49,651 nucleotides of DNA from Candidatus Zhuqueibacterota bacterium (GTDB lineage: Bacteria; Zhuqueibacterota; Zhuqueibacteria; Residuimicrobiales; Krinioviventaceae): NCBI GenBank assembly GCA_016934825.1, contig JAFGSB010000043.1:1-49651 (forward strand), written 5' to 3'. This document shows positions 4,275 to 49,614 of this stretch, in pieces; position 1 is the first letter of the stretch, and the number at the start of each line of letters is the position of its first letter. The notes below the pieces were generated by a model, which did no database searches, was not told where the DNA came from, and worked only from the letters and a program-made list of their open reading frames with translations. Made by a program: the position numbers and the translations under genes.

Positions 4275-7200
4275 CTACTTTAACACGGCCATTTTTCGTG
4301 TCGCTTTAAAGTCGCCCATCGTGATGGAATAGAAGTAAATTCCCGACGCCAGTTTTGAGGCGTCAAATTTCACATTATACCGTCCGGGTTCATGCCGGGA
4401 TTGAACAAGTGTGTACAATTCACGTCCCAAAAGATCATACACTTTAAGAGTGACAAAACAGGCGGTTTTCACTTCAAAGCGGATATTTGTTTCGGGATTG
4501 AACGGATTCGGATAATTCTGATACAAAGCAAAGGACTGCGGCGGTGTAACCAAATCGGGATTTCCCTCAACAGCCAGCGGTTGCGCTGGTATGATATAAT
4601 CCTCCACTTCCCCGTCGGCAGCGGGTCCGGCGAAATACAATCCGCCGGTACTGTTAAACCTGAAACGGGCGCACAGTTTTTCCACGATGGTTATGGTATC
4701 GGGCACATTAAAACTCAGATCATTGTTGCCGCCATGTATTAATTTATCCAAAAATATCTGTTCGCCGGGATCGGTCCAGTCGCCGTCGCCGTTAAAATCA
4801 ATCCAGGCGTTGATATATCCGTTGTCCGATGCGATGATAGTCAGCGAAGCGGTTTTTCCAAGGATTAACGGGACATCGAACTTTACTCCGTCATCATCAT
4901 TCACGCCGTTACTATCGTCGCCTTTGGCGTCGGGATTTGGTAAACCGTCGGTTTCAGCATCAATGAGGCTGCCGAGGTAAAGTTTGGGATCAATAGCATG
5001 GAAAGCGCCGCTGTTCGCGTACAGCGTCGGATAAGCCGGGTCCGGGGCATCTCCGAAATCAAAATTTGCGCCGTCCGCAATAATCAGCACGCTGTAATCC
5101 TCCACCTCGCCGACCGGAGGCATTTTGTCCTGCTGCGGCAGTTCCGTAAAATGCGGGGGGCCGTTCGGGGCAAGCCCGCCCGTATCACTGAACCGGAACC
5201 GGGCAAATGTCACACCCAAAGCTGCTGATGCAGGAACCGGAAAGGTCAACTCATTCATTCCGCTCGTCAACTGCCTGTCGATGAAGATTTGTTCATCCGG
5301 CACGTTCCAGGTACTGTTGCGGTTAAAATCGATCCAGCCGCTCAGGATACCCGCCGCGGAAGCTTTAATCTTCACTACGGCTGTCTGTCCCGGTATCAGG
5401 GGCGCCGGGAAATAAACGCCGTCATCGTCATCGGATCCGTCATAATCGTCGCCGAAACCGCCGGCTTTGGGCTGACCGTCAGGATCGGTGTCCACGGTAT
5501 CACCCAGGAAAAATCCCCTCATGACGGTATGCAGGGCTCCGTTATTGCCGTGAAAAGTTCCATACGAGGCAAAAGGAATATCCCCAAAGTCAAAGTAATA
5601 CCGAAAATCCGATACATGTAGTAGGTAATCTTCCGATTCGCCGTCAAGATACGAGCCATGTCCCACCCAGGGTTCCGGAGTCGGCATGCTGGTTATCGAA
5701 AACCGGGCCCAGACGTACCCCGGATTGGAACCGATTTCAAACGGGGGCGGATCCAGCTCGGATAACATTCCATAAAACGGAGTTTCGCTGGCCGGAATGA
5801 GAAAATTTTGAACAGTGTACTCCCTTGTATGCCAAATACCATCCTGGTCCCAGTCAAACACTGCGTTGAAATAAGAATCCCCGGCATCCCGTTTTATCGC
5901 GATATAAAAATCCAGGTTCTCTCCCCAAACAATGGTTTGTTCCGCGCTGCCCAGGGACCGGTTCAGCTCCCCCTCCTCGCCTTCAGGGATAAAGGGCCAG
6001 ACGGATTCCCAACCGGGAGAACCGATAATTGTATAAGGTATAAGATTCCGGAGACCCGCATCCCGGAGACCGCTTATAATCAATTCATTATTAAATGTCT
6101 CATCCGCGTCATAAACCCAGGGTGTTATATAAGACATACCGGCGTTACCGCACCATTCATAATCCACGCAGTCGCCAAAATAACGCTGACCGACCGGATT
6201 ATGTTTTATGGCCCCGCCCGGTTCCAGATGATTATCAGTGCCGAACCGTCCGATGGTGCCCGCATCGGGATAAGCCAGGGCCTGCTGGGGCGCGTCGCCG
6301 AATTCAAAAAATCCATCCAAACTGATTGCCAGCAGACAATCCTCTGTCTCCCCGTCGCTGAAAATCCCTGAACCGTCCCATTCACCCTCGATCGGCTCGT
6401 CCGTGATCGTCCACCGCGACCAGAGATAGCCGGTAACGTCTTCCGGCAGAACAAATACGTCGGGATCAAGATCGCTGAGCCTGCCGTAACCGGTAAGACC
6501 CTCGCCATGCGGAATATGGAAATTTTGAATGATATGTTCGGGTGTATGAAAAGACGTCAGGCCGTTGTCCCAATCAAATACCCCGCCCCATGAACCGTCC
6601 CGGTTCCAGTCTATCAGCACGTTGAGATAGGCGCCATCCTCGGCAGTAACATGATAGACGACATCAAATCTATCATCACCCCAGCTAATGGATTCACCGG
6701 GTTGACCCATAACACCGCGGCCCCCGGTAACGCTGTAAGGCCAGTAATACTCCGAACCGGCATCTCCCCTGATCGTATAATTACACGGATCGGTCAGGCC
6801 AAGATCTGTATAAATGACAACATCCGCCCGGCGGTCATTTAATCCTTCATCCGTGTCCCAGGGATCGCCGGTGGGAGCGGCCGAGCCGGTATTGCCGTCC
6901 GTTTCATAGTCAACTTCATACCCAAGGTACATTTCACCGCGGGTGCCGTGACGAATAAATCCGGCGGGACCGTCATCCTTCAGGGTCGGGAAACTACCGA
7001 TAACGCCAATATCCGGATAAGCCATTATTCCCTCGGGGGCGTCGCCGTATTCGTAAGGGAAATCCAGCCGGTCAAAAACTTCCACAACGAGGTCTTCCAC
7101 TTCACCGATTTCAACGGGACCGTCATAACGGTCGAAAATCGTGTCGCTGTAACGAAACCGGGCATAAGTTGTACCCGGATCGGCATTTTCCGGAACGATG

Positions 7201-8153
7201 ATAGGCAATACATTCAGCCCCGGGGTGGTTTGAAAATTTGCAAAACGTTCGCCGGGATCATCCCAGTCGCCGTCCCTGTTAAAATCGAACCATGCATTCA
7301 AAATACCGGCGGCGGAGGCGGTCACATTGGCATAAGCCGTATCGCCTTTGATCAACGAACCCTTAATAACGACGCCATCCTCATCATCATTGCCGTCATT
7401 ATCATCGCCTGCCGCGTTTTCATCCGGTTTGCCGTCGTTATCGCTATCAATTTTGGCGCCCAGATAATACCCGGGATTAACGCTATGCCGGGCGCCGTTA
7501 TCACTTCTTAAAGTCGGATACGGAAGCGGCGCATCACCCCAGTCGTATGTGACTTCGGGAGTATCCTTCTCTATTTCCACACGGTAATCTTCCACCTCAC
7601 CGTTTGAGGCTGGTCCGGTAGAGGAAAGTCCCCCCAAAACAGAGAACCGGAAACGGGAAAAAGTGAATCCTATAAATGCGGAGGATGGAACATTAAAATT
7701 AAGTGTACTGGTACCCGGAGAAAGATTGGTATCGTTGAATATATGTTCGCCGGCATCGTCCCAGTCGCCGTCTTTGTTAAAATCGATCCAGGCATTCAGT
7801 TTTCCCGGCACCGACGCCGTAACAGCGACTTCCGCGGATTTTCCTGCTAAAATTGGGCTGGGAAATGACACGCCGTCCTCATCGTCGGTTCCGTCCTTAT
7901 CATCACCGGTGGCGTTACTGGTCGGTTGGCCGTCCGTTTCGGGATCGACAAGATTACCGAGATACACTTTCGGATCAATTGTATGATAAGCCCCGTTATT
8001 ATTATGCAAAGTCGGATATGGCGTATCGGGGGCGTCCCCGTAATCGTAACTCAGCTGGGCAGTGGTTTGTGTGTAAAAAAGGAATAAAAACATCCAAATA
8101 ATATAAAATACCTGCCAAAGTAATGAAACTTTTGTTAATCCTTTTGATTTCAT
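4275..8153 (-). CDS. Giant secreted protein with six GEVED-type modules and T9SS C-terminal domain
   Basis: 1292 aa. There is a signal sequence (hydrophobic core about 10-28, ending TTAQ), then six tandem modules that each open with a DxGDAP-type motif and close with GEVEDY or a variant: about 37-195, 203-360, 367-610, 616-850, 853-1025 and 1031-1188. Modules 1, 2, 5 and 6 carry an Asp-rich GDDxDGxDDEDG loop (likely calcium binding) and an AWIDFNxDGDW strand; modules 3 and 4 are longer and close with DGETED/DGESED. The C-terminus (about 1205-1292) is a T9SS sorting domain with YQNYPNPFNP and ending KMAVLK. It is therefore probably exported across the outer membrane and surface-attached or released. 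AAGGAG precedes the ATG. An adhesin or structural role is likely; no catalytic domain is visible. Confidence 0.88.
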   Translation of the reverse strand: MKSKGLTKVSLLWQVFYIIWMFLFLFYTQTTAQLSYDYGDAPDTPYPTLHNNNGAYHTIDPKVYLGNLVDPETDGQPTSNATGDDKDGTDDEDGVSFPSPILAGKSAEVAVTASVPGKLNAWIDFNKDGDWDDAGEHIFNDTNLSPGTSTLNFNVPSSAFIGFTFSRFRFSVLGGLSSTGPASNGEVEDYRVEIEKDTPEVTYDWGDAPLPYPTLRSDNGARHSVNPGYYLGAKIDSDNDGKPDENAAGDDNDGNDDEDGVVIKGSLIKGDTAYANVTASAAGILNAWFDFNRDGDWDDPGERFANFQTTPGLNVLPIIVPENADPGTTYARFRYSDTIFDRYDGPVEIGEVEDLVVEVFDRLDFPYEYGDAPEGIMAYPDIGVIGSFPTLKDDGPAGFIRHGTRGEMYLGYEVDYETDGNTGSAAPTGDPWDTDEGLNDRRADVVIYTDLGLTDPCNYTIRGDAGSEYYWPYSVTGGRGVMGQPGESISWGDDRFDVVYHVTAEDGAYLNVLIDWNRDGSWGGVFDWDNGLTSFHTPEHIIQNFHIPHGEGLTGYGRLSDLDPDVFVLPEDVTGYLWSRWTITDEPIEGEWDGSGIFSDGETEDCLLAISLDGFFEFGDAPQQALAYPDAGTIGRFGTDNHLEPGGAIKHNPVGQRYFGDCVDYEWCGNAGMSYITPWVYDADETFNNELIISGLRDAGLRNLIPYTIIGSPGWESVWPFIPEGEEGELNRSLGSAEQTIVWGENLDFYIAIKRDAGDSYFNAVFDWDQDGIWHTREYTVQNFLIPASETPFYGMLSELDPPPFEIGSNPGYVWARFSITSMPTPEPWVGHGSYLDGESEDYLLHVSDFRYYFDFGDIPFASYGTFHGNNGALHTVMRGFFLGDTVDTDPDGQPKAGGFGDDYDGSDDDDGVYFPAPLIPGQTAVVKIKASAAGILSGWIDFNRNSTWNVPDEQIFIDRQLTSGMNELTFPVPASAALGVTFARFRFSDTGGLAPNGPPHFTELPQQDKMPPVGEVEDYSVLIIADGANFDFGDAPDPAYPTLYANSGAFHAIDPKLYLGSLIDAETDGLPNPDAKGDDSNGVNDDDGVKFDVPLILGKTASLTIIASDNGYINAWIDFNGDGDWTDPGEQIFLDKLIHGGNNDLSFNVPDTITIVEKLCARFRFNSTGGLYFAGPAADGEVEDYIIPAQPLAVEGNPDLVTPPQSFALYQNYPNPFNPETNIRFEVKTACFVTLKVYDLLGRELYTLVQSRHEPGRYNVKFDASKLASGIYFYSITMGDFKATRKMAVLK

Positions 8154-29077: not shown

Positions 29078-31030
29078 TTAATAATAAAACCAGATGGTTC
29101 GATAATCACCCACTTTTTCACCCCTGGCGGCTATTTCCTCAAGATAATCGTAAATAGGTACGTCCACATAATTGTAAGGCGGTATTGGAGTTATATTTTT
29201 TTCCCAGGGATGAAATTCATAAACCCTGGATCCGTCCGGTAATATCATAACCAACCTATGATCCTGGCCGGCCCGGAGATGATTTTTCCCGAGTTTGGGC
29301 ACATTGAAAACCGGTTCGTCCGTTCGATCCAGACCCGGCAATAAACGCGCTTCCTCCTTCCTCTCCTGTAATATCCTCGCTATGGGAACCATGTAACGGC
29401 GTGTTTCCTCTTTACCCTTCATATTAAAAGTATAATACGGATCTACACCGATTGATTTGAGATCGAGACGCAATTTGACCAACTCGAATCGCCTGGAATT
29501 CTCAATGGTATAAACAACCTGGTTGTATACACTCATACCCGCTTTTCTTATCTTTTGAACGGCTTCGGTCGCCTCCGGTGTTATTTCATATGAATGTTCA
29601 AAGTGAGTTACAATCGCAATTTCACGTTTGGGCGGGTCGTGATATTTACTTAACAAGTTGATCAGGTCATCCGTCCATCGCATGGGCAATACGACGGGTG
29701 TACGTGTACCGAAACGAATTCTGTAGATATGTTTTTTGGCCGACAGGTTTTCCAGGAAATATTGCAATTGTTTGTCCTTTAAAACCATTGGATCGCCGCC
29801 GGTGATCAAAACATCGCCGATACTTTTATGATCGTCAAACCATGCCAGCGCCTTATTTATACGTTCTTTGGATGCAAGCGCCTTATGATCCAGAACACGA
29901 TCGATCTCCCAGTTCCGTTGACAATAAACGCATATTTGCGCGCAGGTATTAAAAGGCTTCAGGATGGCAATAACAGGATATCGTCGGGTCACCAGGTCGA
30001 TAGGCGACGTATCATGTTCGCCCATAAAATCAAACAATTCGTCGCGTTCGGCCCGGTGCTTGGTCATTTTCTCCACAAATTCTTTCGGCGGTAAAACCTG
30101 GGCTCGTGTTGCATGATCATAACCAATTGAAACCTGCGTATCCATCAGGCTTAAATAATAGGGTGTGATGCCGAAAGGTATCCGGTTTAACACTGCCTTT
30201 TTGATCGATTCCTTGTATTCGTCCGAAAGTTCAATCAGGTCCAACAGCGGTTTTGAATCACGAATAACATTTTGAAGATGCCAGATATAGTTTTCCCAGT
30301 CTTCCTGTTTTCCGCCAAAATAGTTTAGTATTTTCACGCGGTTTTCCCGGCGCCAGGTGACAACTTCATCCTCAAGACCGGAGGGATATTTTTTTAAATA
30401 CTTTTGAACTTTTAAACCCAGATCGTCGAGGGCCTCTGTACGGGCTGATCCGGCCTTTTTACCCTTCATTTTGAGAAAATCGGGTATACCTTTTTCGACA
30501 TACCGGTTTTCATGGTAAATATTTGATTGTCCAGTAACACCCTGAAACAAATTAATAAACTCAACCAGGAACCCAACGGAAACGTTTTCCAATTGTTCAA
30601 TCTTTTCTCCCTGCGCCAATTTCCAGAGAATCTCGAGGGCGGAAAATTGAGTGCGCATCTCGTTGACCGGCCCGATAATACTTTTAAAAACCCGGATACA
30701 TTCGCGTACGGTTGCTTTTTCCAAAATATGCAGGTTATTATCGAGGGCGAAGACGGTTCGTTCGGATTTCTCAAGGTAGGAATAAAGCGCATCACGGGCG
30801 GATTCAAGATCCGGTGAGATTTTTAACAGTTTATATATTTCAGGGTTTGCTTTCCACAAGCGCTGAAGGGTTGTTTCATAATCAACTTTAAAACGGGGTT
30901 TGAAAAGTGTTGTCTCATCGGTGAATATATCATCAATAATTTTCGTACTGATCCACTTTTGGCGGGTATCTCTGGACTTGTTGACGGATAACAATTCCTT
31001 ATTATTGTGGCTTTTGGGTTTAGCGCACAT
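29078..31030 (-). CDS. KamA-like radical SAM protein with long N-terminal extension
   Basis: 650 aa. The catalytic part (about 290-650) resembles lysine/glutamate 2,3-aminomutases: the CxxxCxxC iron-sulfur motif at Cys363, Cys367, Cys370 (CAQICVYC), GDVLITGGDPMVL, RFGTRTPVVLPMRWT, HFEHSYEIT, and near the end NVPKLGKNHLR where aminomutases hold the PLP lysine region. The first ~290 residues are a helical extension that classical KamA (about 420 aa) lacks. It probably performs radical SAM/PLP 1,2-amino migration on an unknown substrate, but the canonical PLP lysine cannot be assigned with certainty. No Shine-Dalgarno site is visible before the ATG. It is a single-gene unit divergent from the GntR gene. 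Confidence 0.8.
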   Translation of the reverse strand: MCAKPKSHNNKELLSVNKSRDTRQKWISTKIIDDIFTDETTLFKPRFKVDYETTLQRLWKANPEIYKLLKISPDLESARDALYSYLEKSERTVFALDNNLHILEKATVRECIRVFKSIIGPVNEMRTQFSALEILWKLAQGEKIEQLENVSVGFLVEFINLFQGVTGQSNIYHENRYVEKGIPDFLKMKGKKAGSARTEALDDLGLKVQKYLKKYPSGLEDEVVTWRRENRVKILNYFGGKQEDWENYIWHLQNVIRDSKPLLDLIELSDEYKESIKKAVLNRIPFGITPYYLSLMDTQVSIGYDHATRAQVLPPKEFVEKMTKHRAERDELFDFMGEHDTSPIDLVTRRYPVIAILKPFNTCAQICVYCQRNWEIDRVLDHKALASKERINKALAWFDDHKSIGDVLITGGDPMVLKDKQLQYFLENLSAKKHIYRIRFGTRTPVVLPMRWTDDLINLLSKYHDPPKREIAIVTHFEHSYEITPEATEAVQKIRKAGMSVYNQVVYTIENSRRFELVKLRLDLKSIGVDPYYTFNMKGKEETRRYMVPIARILQERKEEARLLPGLDRTDEPVFNVPKLGKNHLRAGQDHRLVMILPDGSRVYEFHPWEKNITPIPPYNYVDVPIYDYLEEIAARGEKVGDYRTIWFYY

Positions 31031-31535: not shown

Positions 31536-31564
31536 TTGACTTTTTGAAAAATTTAACTTATATA
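31536..31564 (+). promoter_or_regulatory. Putative promoter of the GntR regulator gene
   Basis: TTGACT (31536-31541), 17-base spacer, TATATA (31559-31564), about 50 bases before the start codon and abutting the palindromic operator. Confidence 0.45.
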
Positions 31565-31578
31565 CTTGTGGAACAAGT
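31564..31578. promoter_or_regulatory. FadR-subfamily operator (autoregulatory site)
   Basis: ACTTGT-GGA-ACAAGT, a perfect palindrome matching the TNGTNNNACNA consensus of FadR-type GntR regulators. Outer flanks TTTAACTT (31552-31559) and AAGTTAAA (31575-31582) form a second perfect inverted repeat around it. It covers the expected transcription start, so the encoded regulator probably represses itself. Confidence 0.55.
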
Positions 31579-31614
31579 TAAAATGTAGGCAACTTGACAG
31601 GTTCAACTAAAGAT

Positions 31615-32367
31615 ATGAATAAAAAAGAAGATTCATATAATCTGCGAAAAGTGGATCGCCCTCAGAAGCTGAGTGTACAGATAGAAGCTCAATTGAATAA
31701 CGCAATCCACAAGCAGGTTTTCGGACCGGGAGAATTTCTGCCGAGTGAAAACGAACTGGCCAAGATTTTTGGTGTGAGCAGAAATGTCGCCCGCGAAGCT
31801 CTTTTAATGCTTTCGGCAAAAAATTTGATCGAAATTATTAAAGGAAAGGGGGCTTATGTTGTTGAACCTTCAATTAATCATGTATTAGATCCTTTTACCA
31901 AACTCGTCGATTTTAAATGTGGTAAAGAGTCCTTAGTACATATTTTAGCTATTCGACAGATAATTGAACCATCGGTTGCAGCTCTGGCAGCACAACACCG
32001 CACAGAAAATGACTCGAAAAAACTCGAAAAATGTTTGCAATCGATGGAAACAGCAAAGGGAAATAAAATAGAGTTTAGTCATCACGATATTAATTTTCAT
32101 AACGTGATATCTCGCTCTTGCTACAATCCTCTGGTACCAATCGTATTGGAACCGATCTTCCATGTCCTTGCGAAATTTCACCCGCCCATCTTTTACAATC
32201 CAAATGTGATTGATATCACGCTTGAATATCACACAAAAATTTATGATGCAATTCTGAACCAGCAAAGTGAAAATGCATTTATTGTCATGAAGGAGCACCT
32301 CAAACTAACAGAAGAACATAATAGTCAACTTTATGCAATAATAAATAAAGAATCCCATACAGAATAG
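31615..32367 (+). CDS. GntR-family regulator, FadR subfamily
   Basis: 250 aa. N-terminal winged helix: LSVQIEAQLNNAIHK, FLPSENELAKIFGVSRNVAREAL (recognition helix) and the wing IIKGKGAYV. The C-terminal FCD ligand domain follows, all-helical, with likely metal-binding Asp/His positions in HHDINFHNVI and the final H..I.......A...M..HL pattern (IVMKEHLKL). Such regulators sense small acids or sugar-derived metabolites. The first ATG is at 31615, with only a weak Shine-Dalgarno site (AAAG); a TTG at 31594 is less likely. It is encoded 219 bases before the TonB-receptor operon on the same strand and is its most plausible regulator (inference). Confidence 0.9.
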   Translation: MNKKEDSYNLRKVDRPQKLSVQIEAQLNNAIHKQVFGPGEFLPSENELAKIFGVSRNVAREALLMLSAKNLIEIIKGKGAYVVEPSINHVLDPFTKLVDFKCGKESLVHILAIRQIIEPSVAALAAQHRTENDSKKLEKCLQSMETAKGNKIEFSHHDINFHNVISRSCYNPLVPIVLEPIFHVLAKFHPPIFYNPNVIDITLEYHTKIYDAILNQQSENAFIVMKEHLKLTEEHNSQLYAIINKESHTE

Positions 32368-32406
32368 GGTTTTCTCCATCTCGGGTATATGGGATATGTA
32401 CTACTC

Positions 32407-32434
32407 TTGGAAAATTATTCCCAGGCAGTATATA
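32407..32434 (+). promoter_or_regulatory. Possible promoter of the TonB-receptor operon
   Basis: TTGGAA, 16-base spacer, TATATA, about 150 bases before the receptor start. Weak pattern match; no copy of the FadR-type operator was found in the 219-base gap. Confidence 0.22.
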
Positions 32435-32586
32435 TAAGCAAGTCGAAATTGTATTATATGTTTTAAATCATTTATCCATCTTTAATTAATCAAAAGGAGG
32501 GCAGGTCTTTCATTAAAAATCATTCATGTAGTAATAGTAACAAAACGTTTAACTATCCTAATTTTAACTAAAAAGGGAGGTAAAAC

Positions 32587-35500
32587 ATGAAGAGGTTACC
32601 TTTCTACTTGTTTTTTTTACTTTTGATTACGACGGGAGTGGTTTTTGCAGGTATAACAGGAAAGATATCCGGTAAGGTAACAGACGCGGATACAGGCGAA
32701 CCGCTGCCCGGAGCAAATGTTATTCTCACCGGTACGACACTTGGCGCAGCGACAGACGTGAACGGAAATTACTTTATCATTAATATCCGGCCTGGTACTT
32801 ATTCTGTAGAGGCCAGTATGATCGGGTATGAAAAAATTGTACAAACGGAAGCTAAAGTGTCTTCCGATCACACGACCACTGTTGATTTTGCATTAAAAAT
32901 AACCACTTTAGCGGGTGCGGAGGTCACTGTTGTTGCCGAAAGAGAAATAGTTAAAAAGGACGTTTCATCAAGCCAGATCGTATCAGATGTTGAACAGGTT
33001 GAAGCTGTACCGATGGTGCGTGATATCGAGCAATACATCAACATGCAGGCCGGAATTGAAAATGATCTCATCAGGGGCGGCGGCCTGGACCAAACCAGCT
33101 TTTTGGTTGACGGCCTGGTCGTTGTTGATAACCGGACGAATCAACCAATCATGTCGGTCAATCTCAGCACGATGCAGGAAATTTCCATCATTAAAGGTGG
33201 TTTTAATGCCGAATACGGCAATGTCCGTTCCGGTCTCATTAATGTTGTAACCAGGGATCCAGATCCGGACCGGTATCATGGATCACTGGATTTTCGAATA
33301 TCCCCCGCGCGCCAGAAACATTCCGGAGCATCGGTATTCAATTGGGATAATTTTTATATGCGTCCCTATTTGGACCCCGGAGTTATGTGGGTCGGTACGG
33401 CAAATGGGACCTGGAGTGAAGAGAAACAAAAATCGAATCTTGAATTTATGGGCTGGAATGCATATTCCGAAAAACTTTTGGCCGATGACGATCCCAAAAA
33501 TGACCGCACACCGGAACAATGTCGGGACCTTTTTCTTTGGAATCATCGCGCCGAAGGCAGCGCAGCCCTGGGACAAAAAGAAGGTGAATACGGTACACGA
33601 CCCGATTGGAATACGGATGTCAGTTTTACAGGCGGTGTTCCGGTCATAGGGGAAAAATTGGGTAATCTTGCTTTTATGGCGTCTCACAAGGAAAACTGGG
33701 AAGAATTTGCATTACCAACCAGCCGGGATTATTATAAAGAGAGAAATTCCTCGTTAAAATTAACATCCCGTCTGAGTCCATCCATGAAATTCTCATTGGA
33801 AGGCATTTATGGTGAAACCGAAACAGTAGCCAATAGACGGGAAGGCGGGACGGATAACGATTATGTAACCGACGGAATGGATATTCTCAATTCAGGTGCA
33901 ATGTTCAGCCCCGGCGGTTCGGGACACTATATTGAATACTGGCCCTCGGCGCTGGTTCATTTCGATATATACAGATCCATGGTCGGATTAACCTTTGATC
34001 ATGTTCTGAGTCCGAAAACATTCTACAATGTACGTATTTCCCAGGTCCATGTCAAAAATTTTGCCGGAGGCTGGGGAGCTGAGGATTACAGGGATACAAC
34101 AACGGTAAGATACTTTGGCAACACCCCGGTCGATGAAAGACCATATGGTTTCTGGATCGGTACCGGCCAGCCTATCGCACAACAGGACGGTTCATTTTCC
34201 AACGCCGATGGCGGCGGTCACAGGGATTATGGAGAGGTGAATTCTATTAATGTAAAATTTGATCTCACCAGCCAGATTGATACCTATAACCAGATTAAAA
34301 CCGGTATTGATTTTACTTATGATGATATTCATACCCATTTTGAACGAAACCGGTTCGAATCTTCATGGGAGGATTATAAGATCATCTGGGACCATTTCCC
34401 CTTTCGGTTGGGAGCTTATATTCAGGACAAGCTGGAGTTTGAGGGCATGATCGCCAATATCGGTTTAAGAATTGATTACAATCAGCCAAATACCAATTGG
34501 TACACATTCGATACCTACTCGCAATATTTCTCCAACAGATACAAGGATAAATTGACCTCGGAGGCTCCAACTGAAAAGGCCGAAGGGCATATAAAACTCA
34601 GTCCAAGAATTGGTATTTCACATCCGATCTCGGAAAATGTCAAATTATACTTTTCCTACGGTCATTTCTACTCGATGCCGAACACGACCGATATGTATGA
34701 AATTTACTGGGGCCGTGCATCCGATCCAATAGTCAGGTTGGGCAATCCTGAAGCCGACCTGCCGAGGACTGTCGCTTATGAATTAGGTGTTGAGTACAAC
34801 ATTGCCAACATGTTCCTGCTGCATTTGGCCGGTTTTTATAAAGACGTTACCAATCAGCTCAACGAGATTACTTATACGAACTATTCCGGAAGTGTCGACT
34901 ATACAACATATGGTAATAATAATTATGAAGACATTCGCGGATTTGAATTACGGTTGGAAAGAACATTTGGAACGTGGATAACCGGATGGTTGAATTATCA
35001 TTACCAGGTGAGCACAAACGGATTCCTCGGCAGAAATGCTTACTATGAAGATCCGCGCCTGCAGTTGGTACAGGGTTTGGTTGATCCTAATATCGACAGA
35101 GTACAAATAAGGCCGTACGCGAGAGCAAATATCCAGGTACGAACACCATCCACATGGGGCCCGACAGTGGCCAACTTTAAACCTCTTGGCGATGTTATAA
35201 TCAGCCCTATACTCTTCTGGCATTCCGGTGAATATGAAACATGGAACCCATTATCAAAAACAGGACTTCAAAACAACATTCACTGGAAAGCGATCTGGTC
35301 TATCGATTTGAGAATCAGCAAACGGTTAAGATTTGCGGGTACTAATTTTGAATTGTTCGCCGACATTAATAATATTCTGGACAATAAATACATCAATGAC
35401 AAAGGATTCTTTGACGATCAGGACCGCAGAGATTATCTTGAATCACTCCACCTGCCAATGTACGCGGATAAAGAATTCGACGCCCTTCGTGATGAAGAAA

Positions 35501-35640
35501 ATGGTCTCTATATTGCCGGCGATGACAAACCCGGAGATATAAAAAGCGATGATAAACCGTATATCAACATGCCAAACAAAGAATTCCTGACCTATCGAGA
35601 TCTCCGCAGTGTATTTTTTGGCATTCGAATAGATTTTTAA
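32587..35640 (+). CDS. TonB-dependent outer-membrane receptor with carboxypeptidase-like N-terminal domain
   Basis: 1017 aa. Signal peptide 1-22 (ending VFAG). Residues about 24-115 form a carboxypeptidase-regulatory-like beta-sandwich: GKISGKVTDADTGEPLPGAN, then GTYSVEASMIGYE. A plug domain (about 125-235) includes IEQYINMQAGIE, FLVDGL and GGFNAEYGNVRSGLINVVTR. The remainder is a large barrel closing on a terminal Phe (FFGIRIDF). It should import a bulky ligand through the outer membrane using TonB energy. AAGGGAGG precedes the ATG. No SusD-like lipoprotein follows, unlike Bacteroidota Sus systems; instead a 712-aa T9SS-tailed protein and a PorV-like protein are next. Ligand unknown; a glycan is likely from context. 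Confidence 0.9.
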   Translation: MKRLPFYLFFLLLITTGVVFAGITGKISGKVTDADTGEPLPGANVILTGTTLGAATDVNGNYFIINIRPGTYSVEASMIGYEKIVQTEAKVSSDHTTTVDFALKITTLAGAEVTVVAEREIVKKDVSSSQIVSDVEQVEAVPMVRDIEQYINMQAGIENDLIRGGGLDQTSFLVDGLVVVDNRTNQPIMSVNLSTMQEISIIKGGFNAEYGNVRSGLINVVTRDPDPDRYHGSLDFRISPARQKHSGASVFNWDNFYMRPYLDPGVMWVGTANGTWSEEKQKSNLEFMGWNAYSEKLLADDDPKNDRTPEQCRDLFLWNHRAEGSAALGQKEGEYGTRPDWNTDVSFTGGVPVIGEKLGNLAFMASHKENWEEFALPTSRDYYKERNSSLKLTSRLSPSMKFSLEGIYGETETVANRREGGTDNDYVTDGMDILNSGAMFSPGGSGHYIEYWPSALVHFDIYRSMVGLTFDHVLSPKTFYNVRISQVHVKNFAGGWGAEDYRDTTTVRYFGNTPVDERPYGFWIGTGQPIAQQDGSFSNADGGGHRDYGEVNSINVKFDLTSQIDTYNQIKTGIDFTYDDIHTHFERNRFESSWEDYKIIWDHFPFRLGAYIQDKLEFEGMIANIGLRIDYNQPNTNWYTFDTYSQYFSNRYKDKLTSEAPTEKAEGHIKLSPRIGISHPISENVKLYFSYGHFYSMPNTTDMYEIYWGRASDPIVRLGNPEADLPRTVAYELGVEYNIANMFLLHLAGFYKDVTNQLNEITYTNYSGSVDYTTYGNNNYEDIRGFELRLERTFGTWITGWLNYHYQVSTNGFLGRNAYYEDPRLQLVQGLVDPNIDRVQIRPYARANIQVRTPSTWGPTVANFKPLGDVIISPILFWHSGEYETWNPLSKTGLQNNIHWKAIWSIDLRISKRLRFAGTNFELFADINNILDNKYINDKGFFDDQDRRDYLESLHLPMYADKEFDALRDEENGLYIAGDDKPGDIKSDDKPYINMPNKEFLTYRDLRSVFFGIRIDF

Positions 35641-35661
35641 TAAACATGGGAGAATAGGATT

Positions 35662-37800
35662 ATGAAAAAAACTTTTTTGATTGGAACCATATTCCTGATT
35701 ATCCTGTTTTTTACCGGCATGCCATTATACGCCGCAGGTGTTTACAAATGGGTCAACGTCGGTAAAATTTGGGCAAAAATATTCGATAACGGCCATCAGA
35801 GTGAAACCGAAGGTGGTAACGATGCCGTTAGATATGAATTTGATGGGCACCAGGATGTGAACCGCAGTTTTTCACGATTTTATTTCCGCAACAACGGCAC
35901 ACGGATTGGTGTTAAAAACTGGAAAGATGAAAACGGGACATTATATCCGGTACGGCTTTCAGGAGCACCATTCGGGACTTCTGATGCCGTTCAAATTATG
36001 TTTGTAGTACCGGATGAAAACGGAATCACAATTCACAGATATTTCAGATACAGACCACCCAAGATCAGTGTCGACGGTATGGTTTTAAACGATCCTTTCC
36101 CGTTTGATGACGGAGACCATGTCGCTCCGGAAAAAATTCCGGGAACGGCTGATATCATGATTGAATCCCGGATCCGCACCTGGATCGGATTAGATGTCCA
36201 TCAGCGTGTTTTAGGATGGAGCCAGAAAAACCACGACGACTATGCCATCTGGGACCTGGTATTCAAAAATACCGGTAATGTAGATCATGATGATGAGATT
36301 GAACTGCCAAATCAAACCCTTGAGGGGTTGTATATTCAGAGAGAAATCGGCTGCCAGCCGGCGAACAGCAGGGATAAAGAGTGGAGCAGCTGGTACGGAT
36401 GCAGACCCGGCGACTCCCTGCGGATCATGTATAATTACTCGTGCAGGACCCATAACGCGACAATCGATGATTTTGGAGCGCCGCGTGACGATCAAAATTC
36501 GCAAAGATTATATGGCCCGGGATACGGCGGCGAAGCGACGCTGTTTGTCAGCGCCGCAAACAATGATATGGTGAACGATGATCCCGCCCAGCCGCAAATG
36601 CATACCATTTGGAGCTATCGTCTTTTGTACCTTAAAGAGCATTCACTGAGGCACTCACCGGCGGAATGGGAACTGGCCTACGATGTGATGCAGCGGGGGT
36701 TGTGGCCGCAATACGGAGAACCGCTCATGGAAGGCACATATCCGAACACATATCACGAAGTTCCTGCCGATGAAAGAGGCATTAAAACTATTCGGGATTT
36801 CCCCGAATGGGGTTCGGCCTGGCACTCGATTGTTTTCAACTCGATCGGCCCCTACAACTTGGCCCCCGGCGATTCGATACGTCTTGTTTATGCTTTGGTC
36901 ATCGGCACGATTTCCAAACAAAAAGGCTTTGAAATTGCTAAAGCCTGGTACAACGGAACATGCACGTGGGACGGCGCCGATAACCTGCCGCCGCAGTATC
37001 AGGCTTTTCCCGAGCTCTACAATGATCAAAATGACTGGGCAAAGGACTGCTGGGTAGCTACCGGCAAAGATTCATTGTTCCGTAACGCCATGGCGGCGCA
37101 GTGGGCTCAAAAACAAAATTATGACATTCCGATACCGCCGCCGCCTCCGGATCTTACAGTCACATCTTTACCGGACAGGATCAGGCTCGAGTGGGACGGT
37201 ACACAATCAGAAACCGCTTCCGATTTAGCCGGATACCGGGTTTATCGCTGTACCGGAACATATCATGATTCTTCATTTTACCAAATATATGAATGCGGTA
37301 AAGATGTAAACAGCTATGACGACATTACAGCTGTTCGTGGAACATCTTATTATTATTATGTGGCCGCGTTCGACGACGGCGTTTCAAACAAACCGGATTT
37401 TCACGGCAAAGTTGAAGTTCTGGAGAGCGGCAAGTTTTCAAACATGACGACCCAGCCGGCGTTATTGGCCAGACCTCCGGGAAAATCGCTTGACGATATC
37501 GTCGTTGTTCCGAATCCATTTAGCCTCGAGGCCAGGGACATTCAATTCCCGGGCGATGTAAATAGAATTATCTTTTACAATATACCCCCTGTGTGCACGA
37601 TCAGGATTTTTTCCGAAAGCGGCGATCTGGTTAAAACCATTGAACATACATCCGGCTCCGGAGACGCGGCGTGGGGTATTCTGCAAAATGAACAGCAGAC
37701 GAGTAATACAGGGCAGATTCCTGTCAGCGGTATTTATATCGCAAATATCGAAACGCCCGAGGGCGAAAGTAAAAATGTAAAATTTCTGATAGTAAGATGA
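35662..37800 (+). CDS. 712-aa secreted protein with Fn3-like and T9SS C-terminal domains
   Basis: Signal peptide about 1-24 (ending PLYAAG). Residues 25-490 are an unrecognised, aromatic-rich extracellular region without transmembrane segments or an obvious catalytic motif. After a proline stretch (IPPPPPD) comes an Fn3-like module (about 495-590: VTSLPDRIRLEWDG, DLAGYRVYRC, YYYYVAAFD). The C-terminus (about 620-712) is T9SS-type: VVVPNPF, IRIFSESGDLVKT, GIYIANIETPEG and a final FLIVR. It sits 21 bases after the receptor gene and 56 bases before the PorV-like gene, so it may be a surface glycan-binding partner of the receptor (inference). AGGA lies close to the ATG. Confidence 0.75.
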   Translation: MKKTFLIGTIFLIILFFTGMPLYAAGVYKWVNVGKIWAKIFDNGHQSETEGGNDAVRYEFDGHQDVNRSFSRFYFRNNGTRIGVKNWKDENGTLYPVRLSGAPFGTSDAVQIMFVVPDENGITIHRYFRYRPPKISVDGMVLNDPFPFDDGDHVAPEKIPGTADIMIESRIRTWIGLDVHQRVLGWSQKNHDDYAIWDLVFKNTGNVDHDDEIELPNQTLEGLYIQREIGCQPANSRDKEWSSWYGCRPGDSLRIMYNYSCRTHNATIDDFGAPRDDQNSQRLYGPGYGGEATLFVSAANNDMVNDDPAQPQMHTIWSYRLLYLKEHSLRHSPAEWELAYDVMQRGLWPQYGEPLMEGTYPNTYHEVPADERGIKTIRDFPEWGSAWHSIVFNSIGPYNLAPGDSIRLVYALVIGTISKQKGFEIAKAWYNGTCTWDGADNLPPQYQAFPELYNDQNDWAKDCWVATGKDSLFRNAMAAQWAQKQNYDIPIPPPPPDLTVTSLPDRIRLEWDGTQSETASDLAGYRVYRCTGTYHDSSFYQIYECGKDVNSYDDITAVRGTSYYYYVAAFDDGVSNKPDFHGKVEVLESGKFSNMTTQPALLARPPGKSLDDIVVVPNPFSLEARDIQFPGDVNRIIFYNIPPVCTIRIFSESGDLVKTIEHTSGSGDAAWGILQNEQQTSNTGQIPVSGIYIANIETPEGESKNVKFLIVR

Positions 37801-37856
37801 TCCTGTCAAGCATAAATTGATCCATAAAATGTTTGACTGAAACGGAGGAATAATAA

Positions 37857-38846
37857 ATGAAAAAAATAAATTTAATCTTGATCGTAATATGTATCGGATT
37901 CATATGTATGACCCCTCTGTACTCTGCTATCAATAAAACCGCACAGACGGGTCTGCAATTCTTAAAAATTGATATGGGCGCACGCGCCGCTGCGATGGGA
38001 GGCAGTTATTTGATGATCGGAGATGACGCCTCGGCTATGTTTTACAATCCTGCCGGAATTGCAAATTTGCAGCACAGGTTCGATTTTTTCGCCACCCAGA
38101 CAAAATGGATCGCCGACATCAGTTATATCGCCGGCGGTCTGGCTGCAAACATTCAAAATATCGGTACATTTGGTGTCAGCTATGTCGCAGCCGATTATGG
38201 CGATGATATCGTCGGTACCCGGTATGATGCAACCACTGAACAGGGATATGTCCTGACCGGGAATCTTGATGTCGGCGCCTATGGGATTGGTTTATCGTAC
38301 GCCAAAAGCCTGACGAATAAATTCTCCATTGGCGGGCAGGTTAAATATGTCTTCCAACGTTTGGGCGAAAACCTGCTCAGTTCAGGGAAAACTGTTAAAA
38401 ACGAAGTGTCCGGTGTGGCTTATGATTTCGGTACAATTTTTTACCCAGGTTTTAAAAGTTTTCGTTTTGGTATGGCCATCCGTAACTTTTCACCGGAATT
38501 CAAATATGTGGAGGAGGGTTTTGAATTACCGTTAACTTTTATTATCGGCTTTGCCATGGATGTAATGGACTTTATGGGCGAACACCAGAATAATTTACTG
38601 ATCTCCCTGGACGCCACGCATCCACGGGATTATTCGGAAAGAATCCATTTGGGCGCCGAATACTTATTTATGGATATGATCTCCCTGCGCGGGGGTTACA
38701 AGTTTAATTACGATGTGGAAGGTTTAAGCGCGGGAGTCGGACTTCAAAAGGACATCGGTACCATGAAGGTGGATGTTGGTTATTCATACTCCGAATTTGA
38801 ATATTTCGATGCGGTGAACAGAATATCATTTGGATTCTCCTTTTAA
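37857..38846 (+). CDS. PorV/PorQ-family outer-membrane protein
   Basis: 329 aa. Signal peptide about 1-24. The N-terminal FLKIDMGARAAAMGGSYLM and DDASAMFYNPAGIANL are the hallmark of the PorV/UPF0164 group, followed by alternating beta-barrel strands (VSYVAADYGDD, GIGLSYAKSL, FGMAIRNFSPE, SLRGGYKFNYD) and a terminal aromatic SFGFSF. PorV shuttles T9SS cargo to the cell-surface attachment complex; a locus-specific paralogue might dedicate export of the neighbouring T9SS-tailed proteins (inference). GGAGG precedes the ATG. Last gene of the receptor operon. Confidence 0.85.
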   Translation: MKKINLILIVICIGFICMTPLYSAINKTAQTGLQFLKIDMGARAAAMGGSYLMIGDDASAMFYNPAGIANLQHRFDFFATQTKWIADISYIAGGLAANIQNIGTFGVSYVAADYGDDIVGTRYDATTEQGYVLTGNLDVGAYGIGLSYAKSLTNKFSIGGQVKYVFQRLGENLLSSGKTVKNEVSGVAYDFGTIFYPGFKSFRFGMAIRNFSPEFKYVEEGFELPLTFIIGFAMDVMDFMGEHQNNLLISLDATHPRDYSERIHLGAEYLFMDMISLRGGYKFNYDVEGLSAGVGLQKDIGTMKVDVGYSYSEFEYFDAVNRISFGFSF

Positions 38847-38943
38847 ATCCAAATGTTCCGATTCAGTATGGTAACGCTGATAAAGACGGCTTGACCTTAT
38901 TAAAAAGACCGTCGACTAAAAGTTAAGTAAAACATTTGGAAAC

Positions 38944-39009
38944 AAAAAAAACACAGCTCCCCATTTTATTTAATGGTATTATCCATTTAAAACAAAAATG
39001 GGGAGCTGT
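38944..39009 (-). terminator. Strong hairpin terminator between convergent operons
   Basis: A perfect 15-bp stem ACAGCTCCCCATTTT / AAAATGGGGAGCTGT (38953-38967 and 38995-39009) with a 27-base loop. On the minus strand it is followed by G and eight T, so it ends the GH5 transcript; it lies about 90 bases beyond that stop. On the plus strand no T-run follows, but it may still shield the receptor operon. Confidence 0.8.
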
Positions 39010-39101
39010 TAATAACACACCTGAAAACCAATTGAATCTACCTAATTCACCTGATACAAAAACGATATATCCGTTCCAAATTTAACACAGTACCTGAGAG
39101 A

Positions 39102-41051
39102 TTATCGCATTAAAATCATCTTTCGACTCTGCCGGTAAGCTTTTGCCTGCATTTTGTATATATATAAACCACCGGATACGGCCCTGCCTGAATTATCCAA
39201 TCCGTCCCAAACAATAGAGTACGTTCCGGCTGTTTGTTTTGCGTTAACCAGGGTACGCACTTTTTGTCCGGCCACATTATATACCGCAATATCGACATGT
39301 TGATACGCCGGCACATAATAAATGATCGTTGTCACGGGATTGAAAGGATTGGGATAATTGGGATACAGCCGGAAAGAATTCATAATTATTGGTTCATTCT
39401 CCAATCCGACCACTGCCGGATCGACAATGCGGATATTATCGAACTGAAAACTCACGCCTTCCAGATTACCGTGTTCAGAAACGATTTCAAAACGATCGAC
39501 GGCGGCCCAATCATAATCGCCAACCGGATTGTACCACCCGTTATCCCAGGAGCCGTGTTCGGTAAACTCATCCAGCGGGATTTGAATGTGATGCCATTTC
39601 CAGTTCCAGGCGGCCACCTTTTCATCAATAGTATAACGCATACGCCAGGGATGATCGTCGGGGTCCCCGGTTTTGGTGTCGATAAACCGAATATCGAAAC
39701 TTGTGCCGGGGGTATCCCCGCGCAGCCAGAAATCAATTGCGTATCCCTGTTTCAGCAGGGTTGTCAGATCTTTGTTCGGTTTGAAATCAAAACCGATGTG
39801 CTGGTACTGATCCACACCTGACCAGTGAATGCAATATTTGCCGATAACCGGTCCGTCTTCCGAATAAAAATCGATAATTCCCTGGCTTGCCCAGCTGGAT
39901 TCACTAATGTTCCGGCCGATATAATCCAGATACATGTCAAATCCCGTAGTGTCGGGTTGCAGGACAAATTCCTTTTGCGGAGGCACTGCCAGTCCCAGCG
40001 CTTCCACAAGCGAAATATTCAGATCGTAATCGAACATTTCATTGCTTCCCGCTTCGAACAAACCAAAACCGCCGGTATAATCCCATATTGTCCATGCGAT
40101 CCCTTTTTCTTCCAGGTAATTGCGCACGATTTCATACCAGTAAACGCGGTCATCATTATTGCTGTTCGGAATGTACACGCCAAATTCGCCGCACAACAGG
40201 GGCGCGTTGCGTATATTTTGAAAATCTACGGCAATATCAATCAACTCTTTGACTCGATTGATCGTCCCGTCGTTTTGGTAATATTTCAGACCGCTTTCGA
40301 TCCAGGTGCCCTTTAATTCCGGGGGACATTCGGGCATACGGGCGGCGTCATAGGGAAAAGGCACACCGGCAAGGGGTTCCATTGACGGATCGGTCCAGCT
40401 CGCGCCCTGGTGCGTGAACAAAAACGGATCATAAAAATGAAACGTATAAATCAGATTATCGTCATCGTATAGCGGCATGTACTTGAAATTGTTGTAACTG
40501 TTCCATCCCGCAGGTCCGATGATGATCGTATGTTTCTGATCGACAACTCTGATTGCTTCGACAACATTCTGCTGGATCTGGTTCCATTTTGAATCGGAAA
40601 TACCGTGCGGTTCGTTCAGCACCTCGTAATACAGGTAAGTGGATCGGCCCTTATAATGTTCCGCCATCTGGGTCCATACCGGCACCAGGATATCACCAAC
40701 ATTCGGGTCGGTGTTTTCCGCCGGATCAAACGTATGATTATCAAGGATCAAATGCAATTCCAGTTCCTCCGCGTAATCGACAATCTGATCCAAAAAGTAA
40801 TAAAACAGGGGATCAACAATATAATCCGGTGCTCCCCCCGTCATAAAATGCAGGTTTATGGGAAGCCGGATCACATCACAACCCAGACTTTTTATATTCT
40901 CAAAATCCCGTTTGGTGAATTTGGTGAACTGTATCTGCCGCGGTCCTGAAGTCTGCAGCCAGCCGGTCAGATTGACACCGCGCTTAAATTGCATATCAAC
41001 GCCACGTACAGTTGAAATCATGACTAAAAATACAATCATCGTTCTTTTCAT
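39102..41051 (-). CDS. Secreted GH5-family glycanase with carbohydrate-binding-like module and T9SS tail
   Basis: 649 aa. Short signal sequence (about 1-17). Residues 20-345 form a GH5 (cellulase A) barrel: RGVNLTGWL near 24, LILDNHTF near 101, acid/base Glu147 in YEVLNEPHG, FHFYDP near 204, and nucleophile Glu289 in LLCGEFGVY. About 370-555 is a beta-sandwich resembling CBM11/CIA30-type carbohydrate-binding modules (FDFKPNKDL, WHHIQIPLDEF, SFQFDNIRI). The C-terminus (about 563-649) has YPNYPNPFNP and ends KMILMR, a T9SS sorting domain. It should cleave a beta-glucan or mannan outside the cell. The start has only a weak Shine-Dalgarno site. It is convergent with the TonB-receptor operon. Confidence 0.88.
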   Translation of the reverse strand: MKRTMIVFLVMISTVRGVDMQFKRGVNLTGWLQTSGPRQIQFTKFTKRDFENIKSLGCDVIRLPINLHFMTGGAPDYIVDPLFYYFLDQIVDYAEELELHLILDNHTFDPAENTDPNVGDILVPVWTQMAEHYKGRSTYLYYEVLNEPHGISDSKWNQIQQNVVEAIRVVDQKHTIIIGPAGWNSYNNFKYMPLYDDDNLIYTFHFYDPFLFTHQGASWTDPSMEPLAGVPFPYDAARMPECPPELKGTWIESGLKYYQNDGTINRVKELIDIAVDFQNIRNAPLLCGEFGVYIPNSNNDDRVYWYEIVRNYLEEKGIAWTIWDYTGGFGLFEAGSNEMFDYDLNISLVEALGLAVPPQKEFVLQPDTTGFDMYLDYIGRNISESSWASQGIIDFYSEDGPVIGKYCIHWSGVDQYQHIGFDFKPNKDLTTLLKQGYAIDFWLRGDTPGTSFDIRFIDTKTGDPDDHPWRMRYTIDEKVAAWNWKWHHIQIPLDEFTEHGSWDNGWYNPVGDYDWAAVDRFEIVSEHGNLEGVSFQFDNIRIVDPAVVGLENEPIIMNSFRLYPNYPNPFNPVTTIIYYVPAYQHVDIAVYNVAGQKVRTLVNAKQTAGTYSIVWDGLDNSGRAVSGGLYIYKMQAKAYRQSRKMILMR

Positions 41052-48219: not shown

Positions 48220-49614
48220 TTACCTGACTAACATAATCTTACGCATATCACTAAAATCCGCAGTGATTAATTTTAAAAAATACACACCACTTGAAACCTG
48301 GGTGGAATAATCGTCAAGACCATTCCAGGTCATTTTATAATACCCGGCGACCGTAAACGAGTTCAGCAGAGTTTTCACAACTTTACCGTTTAGATTATAT
48401 ATCAACAATTTCACATCTGTATCTTTCGGGATATTAAATTCGATGGTCGTTTCCGGATTGAACGGATTCGGATAATTTTGCATCAGGGCAAAATCATCGG
48501 GTACCGGGTTAACGCCGGAAACAGAAATCGGCCCGTAAAATTCACTATTTCCATTTGTTGATATTTCTTCAATCTTGTACCAATATAAAATATTGTCCTT
48601 TACTTTACGGTCATTAAAAGAGTATTCCTGATGGGGTGTGCTGTTGCCCTGTGATGGAATGATTGTTTCGGATATTCTTTCATAACCAATATTTTCATCT
48701 GTACTTTTCCAGATGTGAAAACCTTGACAATCAATTTCGCTTTCAGTAGACCATGATATGATAACACCATATTCTTTACTTGAACCAGCACTAAAGTTTG
48801 ATAACTGTACGGGTAAAGAACCGTCATAATGAGCTTCAGCCACGTCACTTGGCTCCCAGCCAACTTTATATGCTTTTGCTTTGATTGTACAAGGATTGGT
48901 AATGTGAATTGGCCCTGTGTAAGGAATGTCACTTTCATCAGGGTCACTTTCATCTATTGTATAATAAATACTTACACCAGGAGTAGTACATTCGATGTAA
49001 ACATCTTGTGCTGTACTATATGTTCCTGCAGGTGGAACAAACGTTGGTGTAGCAATACTACCAGATTCTTGTAGTTGAAAATAAAACAAACAACTATCTT
49101 CAATTGTAGAGGTAACATTGTTTTTTAAATAAGCTATAAGTTTGTACAAACCGGAAATTTTATCATTCAATGAATATTGAATAGGATAAATTGATTCATC
49201 AATCAAACCATCAAGGTCATCGTCAATGCCATTACTAATATTACTTTCAGTATTATAAGGTATACTATAATAACTATTCCATTCCTGATATGTTGTTGCT
49301 ATGTTTCCTAATAGTGGAATAAATACATTAGAAGTATTGCTTTGTACCGTTATATTAACAGTTCTAATATTGTAGTTTTCATTTGTATCAACATTCTTTA
49401 ATTTTAATTCAATTTGTCCATTGTAATTTGTTGTACCACTATTTGAAACTAATAAAGAAAGTTGTACACTATCTATTGAAGTAACTGAATAACCAAAATC
49501 AACATTTGGTGTATAGTAAACAACACCTGCATCACAAAGTTGATATTTAATTCCATAATTTTTTGTGCCATCCCAAGAATATAATAAGCCAAATTTGTGA
49601 TAACTAGTGTTATG
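48220..49614 (-). CDS. Secreted T9SS-tailed protein with chitobiase-like module, 5' end interrupted
   Basis: The frame is open for 465 codons but the first in-frame candidate start is a TTG at 49206; codons upstream to 49614 still read as protein (YHKFGLLYSWDG, YYTPNVDFGYSV, SNGIDDDLDGLIDES with Asp-rich calcium-type loop) and are stopped by TGA at 49615-49617, near the window edge. The gene therefore begins further right and carries a frameshift or stop, or an assembly error. Downstream features: a CHB_HEX_C-like module (TPTFVPPAGTYSTAQDVYIE, YYTIDESDP, TIKAKAYKVGWEPSD), an Fn3-like stretch (VIISWSTESEIDCQGFHIW), and a T9SS tail with YPNPFNPETTIEF ending KIMLVR. More AT-rich than most of the window. 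Function not assignable. Confidence 0.7.
   Translation of the reverse strand, partial: HNTSYHKFGLLYSWDGTKNYGIKYQLCDAGVVYYTPNVDFGYSVTSIDSVQLSLLVSNSGTTNYNGQIELKLKNVDTNENYNIRTVNITVQSNTSNVFIPLLGNIATTYQEWNSYYSIPYNTESNISNGIDDDLDGLIDESIYPIQYSLNDKISGLYKLIAYLKNNVTSTIEDSCLFYFQLQESGSIATPTFVPPAGTYSTAQDVYIECTTPGVSIYYTIDESDPDESDIPYTGPIHITNPCTIKAKAYKVGWEPSDVAEAHYDGSLPVQLSNFSAGSSKEYGVIISWSTESEIDCQGFHIWKSTDENIGYERISETIIPSQGNSTPHQEYSFNDRKVKDNILYWYKIEEISTNGNSEFYGPISVSGVNPVPDDFALMQNYPNPFNPETTIEFNIPKDTDVKLLIYNLNGKVVKTLLNSFTVAGYYKMTWNGLDDYSTQVSSGVYFLKLITADFSDMRKIMLVR

Follow-up and report, generated by a model that had tools for sequence, protein, structure and literature searches.

What stands in for SusD in a bacterium that keeps TonB-dependent receptors beside glycan-degrading enzymes but has no SusD? 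The question is raised by a 49,651-nucleotide stretch of DNA (the window) from a Candidatus Zhuqueibacterota bacterium, which belongs to a phylum whose records include some labeled KSB1. Five genes lie at 31564–41051. A sequence-only reading had described them as a regulator, a receptor, an unrecognized 712-residue protein, a PorV-like protein and a GH5 enzyme, and all five are where it placed them. It had also proposed that they form an analogue of a polysaccharide utilization locus (PUL) whose surface protein is delivered by the type IX secretion system (T9SS). Our own answer leans the same way, modestly: the genes at 32587–38846 are probably one copy of a repeated, SusD-less but SusCD-like uptake module, in which T9SS exports the partner protein with the help of a cognate PorV.

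The locus and its proteins

The regulator (31594–32367, forward strand; TTG start, or an in-frame ATG at 31615) belongs to the FadR subfamily of GntR/FCD proteins, its GntR and FCD domains scoring 69 and 77 bits. Its nearest NCBIfam model is NanR, at a score below the NanR cut-off. Just 5' of the gene, at 31564–31578, is a perfect 6-bp inverted repeat, ACTTGT and ACAAGT either side of GGA (TNGTNNNACNA), which resembles FadR/FCD operators and is plausibly one candidate for such a site. It is a weak one, since the whole window holds six matches to the operator pattern where about ten would be expected by chance, and only position and symmetry favor this palindrome. Divergent from the regulator, at 29078–31030, is a gene for a KamA-family radical SAM protein with an N-terminal extension of about 230 residues.

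The receptor (32587–35640, forward strand, 1017 residues) is a TonB-dependent receptor. It has a carboxypeptidase-regulatory-like N-domain (CarbopepD_reg_2, 73.7 bits), a plug (23.9 bits, right at the cut-off) and a predicted 22-strand-type barrel with long loops. The barrel comes from a low-confidence model (pLDDT 50.7), which VIA-align superimposes on solved receptors with Z up to 31.7; the structures listed for this model are ordinary receptors rather than SusC. A classical SusC identity is ruled out by score: the SusC/RagA model TIGR04056 has a cut-off of 368 bits and gives the receptor only 48, and no receptor anywhere in the genome exceeds that cut-off. Nor is there a match in the genome to any of the three SusD families PF07980, PF14322 and PF12771, which bears out the earlier claim that the locus lacks SusD. 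The sampled genomes of the phylum have SusD in 30 of 82 cases, and in 1 of 22 within the bacterium's own order. A SusD homologue and a SusC/RagA receptor having both been looked for here and not found, the locus falls outside the SusCD family, PUL-like though its working may be. The published survey of KSB1 (PMC9012183) does not refer to TonB, Sus or type IX, a paper on Caldithrix has no SusD, and our literature search, which covered sources other than subscription journals and preprints, found no paper describing a cassette of this kind.

Next comes the 712-residue protein (35662–37800, forward strand). The N terminus is hydrophobic and reads as a signal peptide without a lipobox; a lipobox is absent from 95 of the 96 members of its family, in contrast to SusD proteins, which are lipoproteins. 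No Pfam family matches the protein, its N-domain included, and the T9SS tail model TIGR04183 scores 17.2 bits, under the cut-off of 23. The fibronectin type III (Fn3) domain and T9SS tail claimed from sequence thus lie below the Pfam and NCBIfam thresholds, but family profiles and a structure model agree on both. That model was built from a shallow set of 7 sequences (mean pLDDT 60.7). It is β-rich. Residues 24–489, where pLDDT is mostly 50–78, align with the N-terminal super-β-sandwich and linker helix of a GH94 cellobiose phosphorylase (3afj; Z 15.9, rmsd 3.6, 241 residues, 11% identity by VIA-align), followed in the same comparison by GH65, GH116 and GH161 enzymes and then a polysaccharide lyase. 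Residues 491–605 form an Fn3 domain. Residues 608–712 resemble the C-terminal domain of PorZ (Z 10.3, rmsd 2.7, 82 residues by VIA-align). An initial Foldseek search with the model returned Fn3-type matches only. The catalytic barrel of those carbohydrate enzymes is missing. The modeled protein reads as a barrel-less super-β-sandwich of GH94 type, with Fn3 next and a T9SS tail like that of PorZ at the end. Super-β-sandwiches are typical of carbohydrate-active proteins, though the fold alone shows no function. Such domains are not always sugar-binding, which counts against reading this one as a device for sugar capture. We also considered whether the protein could be a disguised SusD. The SusD fold is helical; the model here is β-rich, and the sequence matches nothing in Pfam or the PDB beyond the Fn3 and tail regions. 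The idea was rejected.

The fourth gene (37857–38846, forward strand) encodes an outer-membrane barrel of the PorV/PorQ family, a paralogue specific to the cassette and putatively the cognate T9SS shuttle or anchor of its neighbor. It scores 198.7 bits with the PorV family model NF033709 (cut-off 90) and 29.4 with Pfam PorV (cut-off 27), and Flavobacterium johnsoniae PorV matches it with E = 2.4e-7. With the equivalog model for true PorV, NF033710, it reaches 62.8 against a cut-off of 250; the closest to canonical PorV in the genome, on contig C32, reaches 231. T9SS machinery is present, with SprA (893 bits, viewed with its gene neighbors) and PorU (893 bits). At the window locus gaps of 21 bp between receptor and 712-residue gene and of 56 bp between the latter and PorV make a single operon likely.

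Convergent with these three genes is the GH5 gene (39102–41051, reverse strand), which encodes a secreted endoglucanase-like enzyme. Its Cellulase domain scores 146 bits and its T9SS tail 32.1 (cut-off 23), while a CBM30-like region at 24.5 bits lies below the cut-off of 27. Both catalytic glutamates are in their motifs, NEP (146) and GEFG (288), and the nearest solved structures are endoglucanases such as FnCel5A and CelC. T9SS-tailed proteins are also encoded elsewhere in the window, at 4275–8153, where the protein has four GEVED domains, and at 48220–49206.

A cassette inherited as a unit

A chance arrangement of genes is ruled out by recurrence, within the genome and throughout the phylum. 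The genome holds at least ten cassettes of receptor, T9SS-tailed protein and PorV (contigs C89, C81, C151, C13, C127 (twice), C49, C7, C76 and C95), and the paralogues of the 712-residue protein in it each have a PorV-family gene next. A family profile search covered 82 genomes of the phylum and found relatives of the protein in every one. Among 96 family genes from the fetched regions (one locus, L102/L042, counted twice, and L045 split by a frameshift; L042 and L045 are the same record stretches as G013 and G017), the receptor lies directly upstream on the same strand in 91. PorV lies directly downstream of 66 of 92, some cassettes being without an adjacent one. Median gaps across the family are 29 bp (receptor to 712-type gene) and 41 bp (712-type gene to PorV). 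Since the 712-residue protein alone was the search query, neither neighbor was selected for.

The three proteins have also diverged together. Across 50 triplets their pairwise distances correlate with r of 0.85–0.89, a level reached in none of 2000 permutations, and among eight paralogues within this genome r is 0.94, 0.80 and 0.81. Species history is no explanation for a correlation among paralogues of one genome. The co-divergence shows inheritance as a unit rather than contact; that receptor and 712-residue protein touch is inferred. The triplet of the sequence-only reading is borne out as a conserved, co-diverging unit. Two things that reading did not contain are the repetition of the cassette across the genome and a further gene after most distant cassettes. 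The latter, the usual fourth gene there (for example at L116, L118, L120, L122, L128, L129 and L162), encodes a lipoprotein of about 400 residues. It contains TIG as well as propeller-like regions, its lipobox cysteine is followed by a conserved S-(L/I/V)-(F/Y/W)-(D/N)-P motif, and in 44 of 79 cases it is found no more than four genes downstream. It resembles, and is placed like, the surface glycan-binding proteins of Bacteroidota.

Does the PorV paralogue belong to the T9SS-tailed protein, or could it be a FadL-like passive channel that admits small substrates and has nothing to do with shuttling? PorV is a member of the FadL-type barrel family (PMC9143113), and the window copy does fall under the PorV equivalog cut-off. 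We nonetheless regard the channel as very improbable. PorV-family genes lie directly 3' of a T9SS C-terminal-domain gene in 17 of 22 cases in this genome, receptor or not, a pattern that fits shuttle–cargo pairing; the tail profile behind this count included some members of the 712-residue family, while eight receptor-less pairs are mostly independent of it. At L058, L060–L062 and L064–L067, where there is no receptor, a PorV-family gene directly follows a gene for a T9SS-tailed protein of up to 2692 residues, which makes cargo–PorV pairing a general rule in this genome. In a tree, the ten cassette PorVs form a cluster that excludes the other twelve; its support is 81/94, and it recurs in 82% of bootstrap trees. 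In Flavobacterium all cargo of type A shares a single PorV. Type B cargo relies instead on cognate PorP/SprF shuttles (PMC12618676) that may double as anchors (PMC9143113). Cognate PorV paralogues would put this dedicated-shuttle logic to a new use.

Sugars, and other things a cassette might carry

The closest relatives of the window cassette sit among sugar genes. The nearest paralogue, on C81 (52% identical), has as neighbors GH109, DeoR, SIS, GatZ/KbaZ, PfkB and a keto-disaccharide hydrolase, which make up a GalNAc-type catabolic cluster. Related cassettes at separate loci adjoin GH106 and GH42; LacI and a GH36-like gene; GatZ, PfkB and DeoR; LacI with GH51, GH43 and GH127; PL9; or GH109 with galactokinase-like, ROK and GH20 genes. 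The sugar functions thus vary from one close relative to another, from GalNAc-type catabolism through arabinofuranosidases and pectate lyase to GH109/GH20, with LacI or DeoR regulators. In L044, L105 and L106 two GH51 genes adjoin the triplet, and these are 80–83% identical between loci. Upstream of another cassette, at L052:698–1492, lies a fragment of a LacI-type regulator missing its DNA-binding domain. Counted against a seed list, a sugar gene is present in 9 of 13 loci of the closest branch versus 2 of 20 control windows, and in 4 of 8 once the loci that donated seeds are removed (p = 0.04). T9SS tails are likewise enriched in the flanks (21 of 97 proteins against 3 of 97 in controls, p = 1e-4).

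Further out the tie loosens. Across the wider family 15 of 82 cassettes have a sugar gene, a lower bound set by the limited seed list, and many distant cassettes have no recognized one. The sequence-only reading had itself said that triplets recurring apart from carbohydrate genes would count against it, and in part that is what they do. It had also put the FCD regulator in the block and the GH5 enzyme opposite it; neither accompanies the triplet in the relatives that were sampled. The link between GH5 and triplet is one of neighborhood only. What stands of the PUL analogy is the absence of SusD, the presence of T9SS, the conserved triplet, the separate PorV group, the sugar neighbors and the β-rich fold. 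What does not is any constant sugar gene in the distant cassettes, or conservation of GH5 and FCD.

It is these distant cassettes that make room for a broader reading, which we think rather unlikely: that the cassette is a generic one for many ligands (peptides, muropeptides, cofactors), devoted to sugars in one branch only, with the window copy able to serve either use. In some distant flanks (alignment A3) the exo-N-acetylmuramidase NamZ, GHL10 and an amidase recur, pointing to peptidoglycan rather than sugar and hinting at muropeptide uptake; Fidelibacter, for comparison, lives on muropeptides (PMC11652737). That branch also has DUF4397 and the TIG lipoprotein and few sugar genes, and the solved RagAB structures are of SusCD-like pairs able to move peptides. 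However, sugar genes and sugar regulators surround the copy in the window and those closest to it (C81, L042, L044, L045, L047 and L104–L107). Quite improbable, to our minds, is that the 712-residue protein is an independent surface or secreted protein, an adhesin or a degenerate phosphorylase-like enzyme, merely co-regulated with the receptor. Fn3 domains and T9SS tails are common among this genome's secreted proteins, and PorVs pair with many receptor-less T9SS proteins as well. Yet the receptor's place upstream is nearly invariant, and receptor and 712-residue protein co-diverge inside one genome at r 0.94, though that bears on co-inheritance rather than contact. Cassette receptors are also bigger than the rest, at about 1020 residues against a median of 761 for the genome's others, giving space for partner-binding loops, as far as the poor receptor model allows.

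A proposed mechanism and its relatives

The reading we prefer, an uptake module with a T9SS-exported partner, would work as follows. The signal peptide would take the 712-residue protein to the periplasm, from where its C-terminal domain would direct it through the SprA translocon and across the outer membrane; the machinery for this is in the genome. The co-encoded PorV paralogue, rather than the housekeeping PorV, may then collect the protein and deliver or anchor it, by analogy with SprB–SprF and the type B/PorP pairs. At the surface, where the protein is predicted to reside, its super-β-sandwich/Fn3 body would sit at the long loops of the co-evolved receptor and capture an oligosaccharide, a role suggested by fold, fixed gene order and co-divergence. 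TonB-driven import through the receptor would follow. The glycan handled would differ between copies. At the window locus the secreted GH5 enzyme probably frees β-1,4-glucan-type oligosaccharides, and the FCD regulator may sense a breakdown product; β-glucan as the local substrate is suggested by one convergent gene. A bolder, tentative version, to which we give less than even credence, extends this to the phylum as an alternative to SusCD: KSB1 glycan receptors would each be capped by a T9SS-exported super-β-sandwich/Fn3 protein held by its own PorV, now a permanent subunit and often joined by the TIG lipoprotein, so that T9SS builds the uptake machine.

Glycan uptake can do without SusD: the CUT loci of Proteobacteria are a TonB-dependent receptor plus CAZymes. 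The KSB1 cassette is like them in this respect but adds a T9SS-exported partner and a PorV, which they lack. Its likeness to Bacteroidota PULs (SusCD; the levan utilisome) is in the receptor gene followed by a surface-partner gene, with CAZymes and a sugar-type regulator next to the pair (GH5 and FCD in the window, varied GH or PL with LacI or DeoR in close relatives), in the repetition within a genome, with hydrolases that differ between the many copies, and in the lipoprotein resembling a surface glycan-binding protein that many relatives have. Unlike those loci it lacks both SusD and any receptor above the SusC-family cut-off, and its partner is β-rich, T9SS-tailed and without a lipobox, each set having its own PorV paralogue. 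BtuB–BtuG of Bacteroides (solved complexes 8blw and 8p97) also joins a receptor to a surface partner other than SusD, but BtuG, a lipoprotein, handles vitamin B12, whereas the KSB1 partner combines a GH94-type sandwich with a T9SS tail. Like SprB–SprF and the type B CTD/PorP-like pairs (PMC12618676, PMC9143113), the cassette sets a T9SS cargo gene beside the gene for a dedicated FadL-type shuttle or anchor in the outer membrane; the differences are that this shuttle is of the PorV/PorQ family and that a nutrient receptor goes with the pair.

If all this is true, uncultured KSB1 bacteria gain a route for capturing large glycans that is invisible to PUL-finding based on SusC/SusD pairs, dedicated T9SS shuttles are no longer confined to the PorP/SprF family but include PorV relatives, and the triplet becomes an annotation marker for sugar uptake in SusD-poor lineages.

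Two further occurrences of the triplet deserve a mention. A record labeled WOR-3 (L046) carries one 69–78% identical to that of the window, which could mean a mislabeled record or a transfer of the locus. And at L117:6976–11418 and L121:6965–11371, two tandem 712-type genes lie between a single receptor and a single PorV.
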